Shown here piece after piece: positions 4,819-54,157 of a DNA stretch of 64,000 bases; positions within the stretch are counted from its first letter, which is position 1; the number at the start of each line of letters is the position of its first letter. The DNA lies in assembly GCF_023161965.1 (NCBI RefSeq), contig NZ_JALNTY010000001.1:850501-914500 (forward strand), read 5' to 3'. The DNA is from Anaerosoma tenue. Its GTDB lineage: Bacteria; Actinomycetota; Coriobacteriia; Anaerosomatales; Anaerosomataceae. The position numbers and the translations under genes are program-made. The notes under the pieces are model-generated. The model was not told where the DNA came from. It saw only the letters and a program-made list of their open reading frames with translations, and made no database searches.

Positions 4819-5502
4819 CTACTGAGCCGCCTGATCGAGCGCGACCTCCGTGCACTGGAAGATCCCATCCGCCTCGATCGAGCCGGTGATGACGGCCTTC
4901 GCGCCACCAACGAAATCGTCGGGCAGTCCGCCGCCCCACGCGACGGACAGCGGGTTGTTCGCCGCGGCGTCATCGGCGAGCTGGAAGCGCACCGCCGAGC
5001 CGGCCGGCGCGATCGAACCCTCCACCACGAAGCCGGTGACCTTGACGGTGACCCCCAGGAGCTCGTCCTGGCGGTTGATGGTGTCGTTCACCGTGAGCGC
5101 ACCGGTAGCCGACTCGTACTTGGAGGGGCACTTGGTGACGAGGTACTTGGCGTCGATCGAGCCGTCGTCGGCGAGGACGCCTGTGACGGTGGCCGTCGTG
5201 CCGTCGCCGAACGAGCCCGGCACGACATCGTTCCAGACGATGCGCACGCGGCCCGCGTCTGGCTCTGCACTGTCCTCGATCTCGAAGACGAACGGCGAGG
5301 ATCCGGAGACCCAGGATCCGGCCACCACCTCACCGGAGACCTCCACCTGCTTGCCTACCAGAGACTCGTTGGTGAGCGCCTCGGCGACCGATGCCTTCGT
5401 GGCCGTCCCGCCGCTGAAACCGGCGAACATGATGAGTGCACCCACGGCTACGAAGATCAGGATGGTCACGCCGATGAGACGCTGCTTGGCTCGCTTGTTC
5501 AC
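4819..5502 (-). CDS. ccmE: CxxxY-type heme chaperone CcmE with a second OB-like domain
   Basis: CcmE binds heme covalently and carries it from CcmC to CcmF. The protein has an N-terminal anchor helix (about residues 8-28) and an OB-fold domain with CPSKY at residues 125-129. This is the cysteine (CxxxY) form of the heme-binding motif, in place of the HxxxY of most proteobacterial CcmE. At 227 residues it is clearly longer than usual (~150). The extra C-terminal region (about 147-222) looks like a second OB-fold lacking the CxxxY motif. It is the first gene of the ccm operon visible here. Confidence 0.85.
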   Translation of the reverse strand: MNKRAKQRLIGVTILIFVAVGALIMFAGFSGGTATKASVAEALTNESLVGKQVEVSGEVVAGSWVSGSSPFVFEIEDSAEPDAGRVRIVWNDVVPGSFGDGTTATVTGVLADDGSIDAKYLVTKCPSKYESATGALTVNDTINRQDELLGVTVKVTGFVVEGSIAPAGSAVRFQLADDAAANNPLSVAWGGGLPDDFVGGAKAVITGSIEADGIFQCTEVALDQAAQ

Positions 5503-5620
5503 TCAGCAATCACTCCCTGCCCGCCGCGCGGGCGCGCGGCGACACGATGATGGAGCGCGAGCGGGGCCGGAACCGGCCGCGTGGCGCACCGCGACTACCT
5601 TTACTTGCCTGAACGTTCGA

Positions 5621-5655
5621 ATCGTACCACACGCGCGCTCGTGAGCCACTCACGA
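5621..5655 (-). promoter_or_regulatory. Candidate ccm operon promoter with overlapping palindrome
   Basis: On the minus strand an extended -10 element (TGGTACGAT, hexamer at 5626-5621) lies about 120 bases upstream of ccmE. Immediately upstream, overlapping the -35 position, is a perfect inverted repeat TCGTGAG-CCA-CTCACGA (5639-5655), a possible operator. The rest of 5503-5721 shows no gene and no other clear signal. Confidence 0.35.
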
Positions 5656-50162: not shown

Positions 50163-51437
50163 CTACGGCAGCTGCGACATCGGATGGCAGTTGAGGCAGA
50201 GATCGTCGTACTCCTCAACGAGCATCCGGCGGTTCTCGGTCTCGTGCGGGAAGTTCTGGAACATCGGGTTGTCCGCGGTCGCGGTCGTCCACTCCGAGAG
50301 TGTCCAGTCCCACACGACACCATCGCCATACTCCACAACGAACGGCTCGGCCCGCGCAGAGCCGTCGGCTGCAAGGTCCCCTACGTAACGGCTGTCCTCG
50401 TGACACTGCTGGCAGATGGGGTAGTGACCGTCCTGACCGCCGTCCCCGGTGGTGCGTGGATACGGCATCAGATAGCCCCGGTTGCCGAGGTCGAACACGG
50501 CGCTCCCGTGCAGTGATGGCGCGACCGACGTCGTCCTGCCGAGTCCGTCGATCACGGTGTTCGACGTCAGCACGTCCACGGCGTCGAGCACCGGGAGCGC
50601 GTCATAGACATACGTGGTCTCCACCGGATGGTTATGCACCGGCCCATCGGATCCGCGACCTGCATGGCACGCAAGACACCACTCGCTGCCGTACTCTGCA
50701 ACGGATCCCGTAGCGCCGCCTGGTGAACGACGCAACAGCTTCGTCGAGGTGGGGTTGGAGAGATGGTAAACGGGTTCGTCGAGCGGAGCATCGTCCCGGT
50801 TGGCGGCGCGGACCCTCACGCGCTCTCCCGTGAACGGCGCCACCACATCGGCGCCGTGAGGGCTGTGGCAGTCGGTGCAGACGAGGAAACCGCTCGCGCC
50901 GCTGAACACCCGTGTGTCGTCGCTACCGCCAGAGATCGGATCCCCGCCGGGCACCACGTTCGTGACGTCGATGCGATGCCCTCCGCCGGAAGCCGCCCCC
51001 GTTCGCGCCGCCACTGTGCCGTACACTCCCCAGCCGCCCGTTCCATCGTGGCAGGTCTCGCATGTCGCCTTGATGGTCGCGGCAGGGAGCAGCAGGACAG
51101 CGTTGGCGGGCGACTTGTGGACCGTGTGGCAGTTCTGACACTTGCTCGTGGTCGTCGTGTAGCCCTGATGGGGTCCAGCCTTCTCGGCGAACGAGTAGCC
51201 CAGCGAGCCATCGGCGCCGTGACACTCGGTGCAATCGCCCGCGGACGGATCGATGGTCGGAAGAGGATCGAAATCGTCATGGCACGTCCAGCATGAGTAC
51301 CCGTCACCTGTGATGTCGTTGGGCTCGCGATAGGCGTGCGCGTGCGGACCGCACGTCGCCAAGAGGCCCAGGGCGACAGTGACTATGGCGCACGCCCGTA
51401 CAACGGGCGTGCGGAAGCGGCTCGCGCTGGTGACCAT
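50163..51437 (-). CDS. Secreted octaheme c-type cytochrome
   Basis: The 424-residue protein has a signal peptide (about residues 1-35) and eight CxxCH heme-binding motifs (CWTCH, CTECH, CQNCH, CETCH, CTDCH, CLACH, CQQCH, CLNCH). Large spacer regions between some of them make it an extended multiheme protein. I cannot name a family. It would carry electrons extracytoplasmically, possibly to extracellular or periplasmic acceptors. The ccm operon at the left end would mature it. No other cytochrome subunit lies beside it. Confidence 0.88.
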   Translation of the reverse strand: MVTSASRFRTPVVRACAIVTVALGLLATCGPHAHAYREPNDITGDGYSCWTCHDDFDPLPTIDPSAGDCTECHGADGSLGYSFAEKAGPHQGYTTTTSKCQNCHTVHKSPANAVLLLPAATIKATCETCHDGTGGWGVYGTVAARTGAASGGGHRIDVTNVVPGGDPISGGSDDTRVFSGASGFLVCTDCHSPHGADVVAPFTGERVRVRAANRDDAPLDEPVYHLSNPTSTKLLRRSPGGATGSVAEYGSEWCLACHAGRGSDGPVHNHPVETTYVYDALPVLDAVDVLTSNTVIDGLGRTTSVAPSLHGSAVFDLGNRGYLMPYPRTTGDGGQDGHYPICQQCHEDSRYVGDLAADGSARAEPFVVEYGDGVVWDWTLSEWTTATADNPMFQNFPHETENRRMLVEEYDDLCLNCHPMSQLP

Positions 51438-51535
51438 GTTCCCCCTGTTAGGTGCAGCCCCGCTGCCAGTACCTGTTCGGCGCTGACGTCCGTGCTCCTG
51501 CAGGATACCGTAACGTTCGCTCGAAGTCCCTGCGG

Positions 51536-52210
51536 CTACGCGGCCATCACCACGAACACAAGGCCGTCCCGAGCGACGACCGGATACGTCCGTACATCGG
51601 CATCAGGATGGTCCGTGTGCCCCGTTCGGACGTCGTACCGCCAACCATGCCATGGGCACATCACCTCGTAGCCGTCGAGCGTGCCGCCGGAAAGCGGCCC
51701 GAACGCGTGAAGGCATACATTGGAGAGCGCGAAGAACTCGTCACCCACGCGGGCGACCGCTATGTCGGTGGTGCCGATCTTCACCAGCTTCATGGAGCCG
51801 GACGGGATATCGGCCACCCGGCAGACGGGCACCTCCACGGGCGTGCCGGGCTCGGGCTCCTCGATCACGCCGAGCAGCGCATCGGGGTCCTCCACGTCGC
51901 TCCGCACGAACAGCCCGCACCAACACTTGCCCATACCCGCGAACCGCACCGCGTGGAACACGATGCAGGGGCAGACGATGCGCGCATCCTCCTTGGGGTT
52001 GCCGGTGCGCATGCGGCACGGGCAGTACACATCGCCGGTCTCCTCGAGGATCTCGAGTTCCGATGAGAGCACGGCATCCACGAACTCGACATCGGGGTTG
52101 AACACGTAGCCGAGCGATGCCGCATACGGCCCCATGTACGCCTTGAGGTCCTCCGCCGAGGTCCCGGGCGCGAAGCGTCGGCGCACCGGACGGTCGTCTT
52201 CCCCGCTCAC
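51536..52210 (-). CDS. Ferredoxin-thioredoxin reductase catalytic domain fused to a Rieske domain
   Basis: Residues 1-110 carry the FTR catalytic-chain cysteines CPC (63-65), CPC (80-82) and CWC (96-98). These hold a [4Fe-4S] cluster next to a redox disulfide. Residues ~125-224 form a Rieske domain with C166-x-H168 and C185-x2-H188 for a [2Fe-2S] cluster. The 224-residue protein lacks a signal peptide, so it is cytosolic. The Rieske part might replace ferredoxin as electron input. The gene overlaps the upstream glutaredoxin-like gene by 4 bases, which suggests that the glutaredoxin is its substrate. Confidence 0.85.
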   Translation of the reverse strand: MSGEDDRPVRRRFAPGTSAEDLKAYMGPYAASLGYVFNPDVEFVDAVLSSELEILEETGDVYCPCRMRTGNPKEDARIVCPCIVFHAVRFAGMGKCWCGLFVRSDVEDPDALLGVIEEPEPGTPVEVPVCRVADIPSGSMKLVKIGTTDIAVARVGDEFFALSNVCLHAFGPLSGGTLDGYEVMCPWHGWRYDVRTGHTDHPDADVRTYPVVARDGLVFVVMAA

Positions 52211-52452
52211 AGGTCCAGCTGCTTCTTCATCGCCGCCTTGTTGAAGCCCACGATCACCTCGTCGCCGACCAGCAGCACCGGGAACGAGGTGCCACCCGAC
52301 AGCCGCTTCACCTCGGCCACCACGGTCGTCCGCTCATCGCCCTCGAGCAGGTCGACGTCGATGGCGTCGTACTCGACCTCGTTGTCATCGAGGTACTTCT
52401 TCGTCATCCGGCAGTACGGGCAGGTGGAAAGCGCATACAACATGACGGACAC
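52207..52452 (-). CDS. Glutaredoxin-like protein (CPYC)
   Basis: This 81-residue glutaredoxin/NrdH-type thioredoxin-fold protein has STCPYCRMTKKYL (residues ~9-21) and the cis-proline SFPVLLVGDEVIVGFN. It is probably reduced by, or works with, the FTR-Rieske protein whose start overlaps its stop. In organisms with FTR, thioredoxin-fold partners take electrons from the FTR disulfide. Confidence 0.9.
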   Translation of the reverse strand: MSVMLYALSTCPYCRMTKKYLDDNEVEYDAIDVDLLEGDERTTVVAEVKRLSGGTSFPVLLVGDEVIVGFNKAAMKKQLDL

Positions 52453-52479
52453 GGCTGCCTCCTTGCGTGGGTCGGCTTG

Positions 52480-52836
52480 TCAGTTCGTGAACGTGCTGAC
52501 AGGCGGTTCGTCCTTCTCCATCTCGATCTTGCGCCAATGGTAGAGATACAGAGGCCCTGCGATGACCACGAGCGCGATGTTGCCGGCGAGGTCGAGCACT
52601 CCCTGGCGCGTGGACTGCGCCTGCCAGCGACGCTGCTGCTCCTCGATGTCCGCCTCGGTCATCTCCCCGCCGACCTTCACCGGCGCATAGGGGTCGAAGT
52701 ACGCCCCCGGGTCGGGATACGCAAGCTCGACGGCGGTGCGGACCACGCCGGCGGCCCCGACGATCACCATGATGAGCGTGATCAGGCATACGACGTACAG
52801 ATAGATGTTCCTCAGCGACCACCGGGCGTCTGACAC
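52480..52836 (-). CDS. Small membrane protein, tandem paralogue 2 (DUF5671-like, tentative)
   Basis: The 118-residue protein has two membrane helices (about residues 12-30 and 80-98), a conserved start RWSLRNIYLY and a conserved YHWRKIE near the end. It is clearly paralogous to the gene at 52850, with which it is in tandem (13-base gap). GTG 52836 is used because it matches the paralogue's N-terminus and follows GAGAGGGTGG. The function is unknown. Confidence 0.75.
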   Translation of the reverse strand: MSDARWSLRNIYLYVVCLITLIMVIVGAAGVVRTAVELAYPDPGAYFDPYAPVKVGGEMTEADIEEQQRRWQAQSTRQGVLDLAGNIALVVIAGPLYLYHWRKIEMEKDEPPVSTFTN

Positions 52837-52849
52837 GGCAACCACCCTC

Positions 52850-53212
52850 TCACGCCGCGCCGGGGGCGGCAGGCTCTGTGGACCGGGGCTTCTCCAGCTC
52901 GATCTTGCGCCAGTGGTAGACGTAGATGGGGCCCGCGATGAAGACGTACGACAGGCTGCCGACGAGCGAAATCACCGCATATCGCCTGGCCGAGTCCTCC
53001 TGGGTCTTCTGCTGGCTCTCCCACTCCTCGTCGCTGTAGAGCGGGTCGCCCTCCTCGTCCACAGGCCGCTCCATGTAGTAGCCCGGGTCCGGATAGATCA
53101 TGTCAACGATGCTCCGCACCGCCGTTGCCGCGCCCACGATCACCATGATGAGCGTGATCAGGCAAACCAGATACAGGTAGATGTTCCTGAGCGACCACCG
53201 ATCGTTCGCCAT
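52850..53212 (-). CDS. Small membrane protein, tandem paralogue 1 (DUF5671-like, tentative)
   Basis: The 120-residue protein has the same two-helix layout and the same RWSLRNIYLYLVCLITLIMVI start and YHWRKIELEK end as its neighbour. The intervening acidic region differs (DEEGDPLYSDEEWES). ATG 53212 follows GAGGAGCG. A local duplication is clear; the function is not. It is divergent from the hydrolase gene at 53390. Confidence 0.8.
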   Translation of the reverse strand: MANDRWSLRNIYLYLVCLITLIMVIVGAATAVRSIVDMIYPDPGYYMERPVDEEGDPLYSDEEWESQQKTQEDSARRYAVISLVGSLSYVFIAGPIYVYHWRKIELEKPRSTEPAAPGAA

Positions 53213-53344
53213 CACGCGCTCCTCGTCGTTCCGGGTGCCGGCGCCGCGCACCCCGCGCGGACCGAACGGACGTGTGGATGTCCGTGTTGCGAGTGTATTC
53301 CCCCAGCGGGCCGGAGAGCCACACCACATGTCAGGCGGACGCGG

Positions 53345-53399
53345 TACAATCCCTCGCATGTCCAAGCACATCACCATCGAGGCGCACCGGTGCGCCTGA
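53345..53399 (+). promoter_or_regulatory. Promoter and 13-codon upstream ORF of the hydrolase gene
   Basis: A -10 element TACAAT (53345-53350) would start transcription at about 53357, one base before an ATG (53358) opening a 13-codon ORF (MSKHITIEAHRCA, stop 53397-53399). The mini-ORF would be leaderless and overlaps the GTG (53390) of the hydrolase, hinting at translational coupling. No good -35 element is visible. Confidence 0.35.
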
Positions 53400-54157
53400 C
53401 CATTCTCGCCTCCGGTTCGTCCGGCAATGCGGCCCTCGTCGAGTCGGGCGGACGGGCCATACTCCTGGATGCGGGCATCTCGGCCCGGGAGACGCTGCGC
53501 CGCCTCACCGTGGCGGGCGGCGCCGACGCGCGCATCGAGGCGATCGTGCTCACCCACGAGCACTCCGACCACGTGCGCGGCGTCCGGGTGCTCGCACGCA
53601 AGCTCGGCGTACCCGTCTACGGCACTGCCGGCACGCTCCAGGCGATCGCGAGCTCGCTTGCCGACGTGCCGGAGACCGTGACGATAGACCGTCGCGACCG
53701 GTTCTCCCTGGCCGGCATGAAGATCACGGTGTTTCCGAGCGCTCACGACGCCGCAGACCCATGCGGGTACGGCTTCGAGAGCAGACGGGGGCATCGTGTG
53801 GTGGTCACCACCGATACGGGCGTGATCACCGCCGAGGCCGCCGAGGTTCTCGCAGGCGCTCATGTGATCGGCATCGAGGCCAACCACGACCGCCTGATGC
53901 TCGACACCGGGCCGTATCCACCGTTCCTCAAACGGCGGATCGCGGGAGGCACCGGCCACCTCTCCAACGACGCCGCCGCGGACGCCCTCAGGGCCGCTGC
54001 ATGGCGCGGGCTCTCGCAGGTCTTCGCGATGCACATCTCGGAGCAGAACAACTCCCCGCAGGCGGCCCAGACGGCTCTTGCGCGCACGCTCCGCAGCCAG
54101 TCGCAGACGGCGCTCGAGATTGTGTGCCGGGGGCAGATCGCGGGCTGCTCGCTCTAG
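53390..54157 (+). CDS. MBL-fold hydrolase (WalJ/YycJ-like)
   Basis: The 255-residue metallo-beta-lactamase-fold protein has ILASGSSGNA near the start, the metal-binding THEHSDH (about residues 56-62), a second histidine in PSAHDAAD, and TDTGV and EANHD motifs. This pattern is that of the YycJ/WalJ group of predicted nucleases/hydrolases. The GTG start overlaps an upstream 13-codon ORF. It converges with the cobalamin adenosyltransferase gene (4-base overlap of ends). Confidence 0.85.
   Translation: MRLTILASGSSGNAALVESGGRAILLDAGISARETLRRLTVAGGADARIEAIVLTHEHSDHVRGVRVLARKLGVPVYGTAGTLQAIASSLADVPETVTIDRRDRFSLAGMKITVFPSAHDAADPCGYGFESRRGHRVVVTTDTGVITAEAAEVLAGAHVIGIEANHDRLMLDTGPYPPFLKRRIAGGTGHLSNDAAADALRAAAWRGLSQVFAMHISEQNNSPQAAQTALARTLRSQSQTALEIVCRGQIAGCSL

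Follow-up and report, generated by a model that had tools for sequence, protein, structure and literature searches.

Does the open frame that joins a ferredoxin:thioredoxin reductase (FTR) catalytic chain to a Rieske domain in Anaerosoma tenue encode a genuine protein, and, if so, what could a Rieske cluster do for such an enzyme? The locus lies in the window, by which we mean the whole stretch of 64,000 nucleotides that was analysed, in a genome of 2.1 Mb that is 99% complete; its features are collected in the table below. The whole protein is read from one open frame. It scores 69.5 bits against the Pfam cut-off of 22 for FeThRed_B and carries the six cysteines in CPC/CPC/CxC arrangement, as is characteristic of an FTR catalytic chain; its C-terminal part scores 76.5 bits against the cut-off of 20.3 for Rieske and holds the complete CxH...CxxH ligand pattern. 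The preliminary description had placed six FTR cysteines and four Rieske ligands intact in one 224-residue protein, and its coordinates, frame and residues proved right.

Features of the fusion locus, in positions of the window
Feature	Position	Strand	Evidence
FTR catalytic chain-Rieske fusion protein, 224 aa, GTG start	51536..52210	-	ORF, 40 homologues, 57 genomes
FTR catalytic domain, residues 21-110, PF02943 FeThRed_B	51881..52150	-	Pfam E 3e-19
Rieske [2Fe-2S] domain, C-terminal, residues 127-209, PF00355	51584..51832	-	Pfam E 1.5e-21
CPC: C63 (cluster ligand by homology), C65 (redox-active by homology)	52016..52024	-	Invariant in alignment
CPC: C80, C82 (cluster ligands by homology)	51965..51973	-	Invariant in alignment
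CWC: C96 ligand, W97, C98 redox-active (by homology)	51917..51925	-	W97 in 40/40
Rieske ligands C166-x-H168	51707..51715	-	Invariant in alignment
Rieske ligands C185-P-W-H188	51647..51658	-	Invariant in alignment
Glutaredoxin-like protein, 81 aa, CPYC residues 11-14 (52411-52422)	52207..52452	-	Pfam, 39 loci
Small predicted membrane protein, DUF5671-like	52480..52845	-	27 bp upstream of Grx

The FTR part matched the FTR-like structures 4tpu and 7pwe, and the Foldseek matches of the Rieske part are dioxygenase ferredoxins (7pwe is also in the Foldseek list); in fold and ligands the C-terminal domain resembles the Rieske ferredoxins of the CarAc and BphA3 type (1vck, 2e4p and 5bok). The latter are stand-alone oxygenase carriers, whereas the fusion is the sole Rieske match in its genome. 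It also scores below the NCBIfam cut-off of every named Rieske equivalog (HcaC, NirD, AndAb and MocE), and it reaches 40.6 bits against a cut-off of 160 for NF041072, the FtrB double selenoprotein with two selenocysteines, in place of which the fusion has cysteine throughout. An AlphaFold2 model built with 34 sequences had a mean pLDDT of 85.8 and a pTM of 0.79, figures that describe overall confidence, and was least confident at the N-terminus and around residues 51-80. The protein presumably binds both a [2Fe-2S] and a [4Fe-4S] cluster.

The fusion is conserved and clade-wide. An exact-pattern scan of 84,980 species genomes, which might miss distant Rieske-FTR fusions beyond the order, retrieved 40 relatives matching across both domains, with best-segment identities of 58-75%. 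In the alignment of the window protein and its homologues (n=40, leaving aside the broken frame of locus L038), all ten residues C63, C65, C80, C82, C96, C98, C166, H168, C185 and H188 are invariant, as are W97 and the Rieske stretch CPWHGWRYD (40/40); a chance occurrence of the ligand residues is thereby ruled out. An FTR match was found in 57 of the 69 genomes of the order searched, some of the other 12 being incomplete, and the in-frame fusion was read in every one of these 57, a set that overlaps the 40 loci of the contig scan; the copy in genome G101 has an in-frame TGA. Because the same fusion recurs in 57/57 FTR-bearing genomes and the ligands are kept in 40 sequences, a frame or sequencing error is excluded. 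The reading of the frame as two genes joined by a sequencing or assembly error, which the preliminary description had itself named as what would overturn it, is thus vanishingly improbable. As the close relatives of the window genome are labelled Coriobacteriia or Actinobacteria MAGs, and one of them Anaerosomatales, we infer that the order carrying the fusion is that of the Anaerosomatales (OPB41), which has cultured members in Anaerosoma and Parvivirga. These bacteria are strict anaerobes, and those in culture are catalase-positive (PMC9686372). The frame of L038 (positions 4977-5651; genome shared with L234 and G101) is interrupted by a TGA exactly at the codon of the catalytic C65 (CPU); this is either a selenocysteine or a one-base error, and the contig name gives a coverage of 1.6.

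The gene directly upstream of the fusion encodes a glutaredoxin (Grx) with a CPYC motif, which scores 56.3 bits against a cut-off of 22.9 (PF00462), is placed among Grx/NrdH-like families and is the sole match to the Grx model in its genome. As had been described, the two genes overlap: the Grx stop codon runs into the start codon of the fusion over 4 bp (GTGA), and this overlap is kept in most of the aligned loci. In each of the 39 other loci whose contig extends far enough, the gene immediately upstream is Grx (the contig of L023 is cut). Beyond this pair, no other redox gene was found to be conserved at all loci, and among the neighbours checked there is no conserved reductase or ferredoxin gene beside the pair. 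A DUF5671-like homologue stands upstream of Grx in 22/40 loci, window included, and is a possible operon member; in the window, two small predicted membrane protein genes, the DUF5671-like one and another at 52850-53212 (-), stand in tandem there and are ~53-55% identical. A search of 51300-53400 yielded no sigma-70-like promoter. Downstream of the fusion lies a multiheme c-type cytochrome gene (50163-51437, -), which few relatives keep; with a homologue in just four other loci, it was rejected as a partner. The upstream cobalamin/ABC and metallo-beta-lactamase genes and the downstream SPFH/NfeD genes, all named by eye, occur at some loci only and have no redox role; they too were set aside as partners and are read as background synteny.

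The coupling to Grx is a known arrangement, not a new one. The solved 7pwe, a natural Grx/ferredoxin disulfide reductase fusion from Desulfotalea psychrophila, matches both the window Grx and the FTR part, which makes the coupling one of a known kind, although its Grx is fused in frame, its chain has 196 residues and it has no Rieske domain. We read the best 30 loci from FTR searches in each of three phyla, namely the window's own, that of a Deltaproteobacterium and that of a Nitrospira. Grx stands directly upstream in 99/102 distinct FTRs with a C[Y/W/F]C last motif and is adjacent in 0/12 distinct FTRs with CHC, values that are not population frequencies since the sample consists of the best-scoring loci of three phyla; of the three C[Y/W/F]C FTRs lacking Grx, one (L080) begins near a contig edge. 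Grx coupling is therefore general among C[YWF]C FTRs, and the idea that it is peculiar to the Rieske fusion was dropped. The two kinds also fall apart in the FTR tree, and the fusion, with Grx immediately upstream on the same strand, fits the Grx-linked branch. CHC-type copies occur in five genomes of the order (six loci) and have neither a Rieske domain nor a Grx match alongside. These second FTR loci (L224, L225, L226, L229, L233 and L235) have a different C-terminal extension, and at L226 the gene beside the FTR looks, by eye, like a BcrA/BadF-type dehydratase activator.

The last motif of plant and cyanobacterial FTR is CHC, and that enzyme works with a separate variable subunit and draws on ferredoxin to reduce thioredoxin. 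The fusion shares its CPC...CPC...C-x-C [4Fe-4S]/disulfide core, but has Trp in place of the His between the last two cysteines in 40/40 sequences, a Grx neighbour and a fused Rieske domain. CPC/CPC/CWC, which the preliminary description had given as the FTR set, is accordingly a departure from the canonical one, of a kind common to other Grx-linked FTRs. Within the genomes sampled, the residue in the last C-x-C is a sequence marker that parts Grx-linked from plant-type FTRs.

Many CYC FTRs among the loci read carry a C-terminal rubredoxin, some of them two in tandem. The structure 4tpu, which we take to be a Methanosarcina acetivorans protein named 'ferredoxin disulfide reductase', belongs to this rubredoxin class, as its match to L193 covers both domains (E 2e-58). 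Like the fusion, it consists of an FTR catalytic chain followed by a one-electron Fe domain and has a non-His last motif, and bacterial members of its class have Grx adjoining; unlike the fusion, it has rubredoxin where the fusion has Rieske, CYC where the fusion has CWC, and an FTR part of another lineage. A tree of the FTR part places the Rieske fusions in one group (support 93/87) outside the rubredoxin-fusion group, and the stand-alone CWC FTRs L115 and L173 join them at 100/99; the deep forks are weak, as only 92 columns were available. The tree thus indicates a single origin of the Rieske fusion in a separate lineage of CWC FTRs, and the two fusions, which share the C-terminal place, look independent since the tree puts them apart. 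Given that the slot is that of rubredoxin and the origin single, we regard the fusion as a domain swap specific to this clade, by which a disulfide reductase of the known Grx-linked kind gained a new port for single electrons. In some CYC rubredoxin FTRs an in-frame TGA falls at the last redox cysteine; in the Actinomycetota FTRs L181, L191, L194, L197 and L198 this TGA (CYU) is followed by one or two rubredoxin domains. Selenoproteins of the FTR kind have been described before (PMC2398784; see also family NF041072).

Outside the order we did not find the combination. A search of 198 genomes of the phylum with a whole-fusion model gave full-length matches only in the four sampled genomes of the window's family, the matches listed for the rest covering the Rieske part alone or the FTR part alone, and no Rieske domain was fused to FTR among the ~90 loci read (best 30 per phylum). 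In the Nitrospira phylum, FTR matches in G688, G698, G707, G716, G724 and G731 lie inside ~625-aa open frames, possible large FTR fusions. A literature search, which did not reach key subscription papers, found no published description of an FTR-Rieske fusion; work on the Methanosarcina ferredoxin disulfide reductase may list further fusion classes.

Read most simply, the Rieske domain serves a Grx-reducing FTR as its electron port. As the best explanation of these data, it is a built-in one-electron port that takes over the role otherwise played by a separate variable subunit of FTR or, in the relatives, by a rubredoxin domain, and the fusion is probably a Grx-reducing enzyme of the ferredoxin-disulfide-reductase type, from the Grx-linked, non-plant branch. 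A soluble low-potential donor, probably ferredoxin, would reduce the Rieske [2Fe-2S] cluster, from which electrons would pass singly to the [4Fe-4S] cluster beside C65-C98; after two electrons, the C65/C98 dithiol would reduce the CPYC disulfide of the co-translated Grx, which could then reduce cell proteins. In this scheme the electron direction, the donor, Grx as the direct partner and the targets are all putative. Since fusion and Grx are both conserved in the order, and 7pwe shows that such a pair can be physically joined, they plausibly form one electron path. To this extent the self-contained path proposed earlier stands; its further claim, that the path works without a separate ferredoxin, does not, because in the closest solved relative, of the 4tpu class, the rubredoxin in the same place is reported to be fed by ferredoxin, so that the Rieske domain may simply be a docking relay. 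Nor did we find support for a path starting at a reductase, given the neighbourhood described above.

Several observations sit uneasily with the Rieske domain as an inward port. One is the lack of a conserved reductase or ferredoxin gene beside the pair among the neighbours checked. Rieske proteins of the bc1 type have HGS in the ligand loop and extra cysteines; the loop here reads HGW and has neither that Ser nor the disulfide cysteines, which suggests a potential of ~-100 to -150 mV. This is usual for Rieske ferredoxins, and FTR disulfides lie at ~-300 mV. Transfer from Rieske to FTR would therefore be locally uphill, and with a port so poorly matched to the disulfide at -300 mV, electrons may run the other way or be gated. 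The window genome also encodes a complete NADPH thioredoxin reductase, which scores over the curated cut-off and leaves the need for a fusion/Grx path unclear. The enzyme could instead run in reverse: Grx dithiols would be oxidised via the FTR cluster, and electrons would leave for an acceptor through the Rieske domain, whose potential is higher, which would make the fusion a thiol oxidase or an electron sink under oxidative stress. Both kinds of fused port, the Rieske domain and the rubredoxin of the relatives, are indeed domain types usually of higher potential than FTR disulfides, and the HGW loop points to a Rieske of the roughly -150 mV kind; we nevertheless consider this unlikely, as a rubredoxin-type relative, 4tpu, is reportedly a ferredoxin-driven disulfide reductase, the neighbours checked include no conserved acceptor gene, and cytoplasmic disulfide formation is unusual. 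Equally doubtful is the broader proposal that this clade-wide FTR with a high-potential Rieske port acts as a thiol-oxidising outlet, or as a gated valve, between the Grx pool and a one-electron partner, with its cluster reversed relative to every characterised FTR.

A Rieske domain that carries no catalytic electrons, and instead turns the FTR-Grx pair on and off in response to redox state or oxygen, would suit a genome in which the fusion, as the sole Rieske protein, serves no other Rieske chain and bulk disulfide reduction is covered by the NADPH thioredoxin reductase. The same slot in relatives holds rubredoxin, an electron carrier, which favours transfer over sensing and leaves such a gate quite improbable. 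We hold it very improbable that the pair is an NrdH-type supply line to the class III ribonucleotide reductase, as has reportedly been found in Methanosarcina barkeri. The family placement of Grx and the presence of NrdD in 7 of 13 relatives searched would fit this, but no NrdD match (PF13597) was found in the window genome (99% complete) or in the fusion-bearing G010, G022 and G057 (97-99% complete), and the enzyme was accordingly rejected as a general target.

The Grx-reducing FTR with a Rieske port thus remains the reading that we prefer. Since a Rieske port usually lies well above the disulfide potential, the gathering of two electrons by FTR and the direction of transfer become directly testable, in a single soluble protein of 25 kDa whose partner is encoded by the adjoining gene. 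More generally, FTR catalytic chains seem to take different one-electron ports: a variable subunit in plants, rubredoxin in the 4tpu class, and Rieske here.
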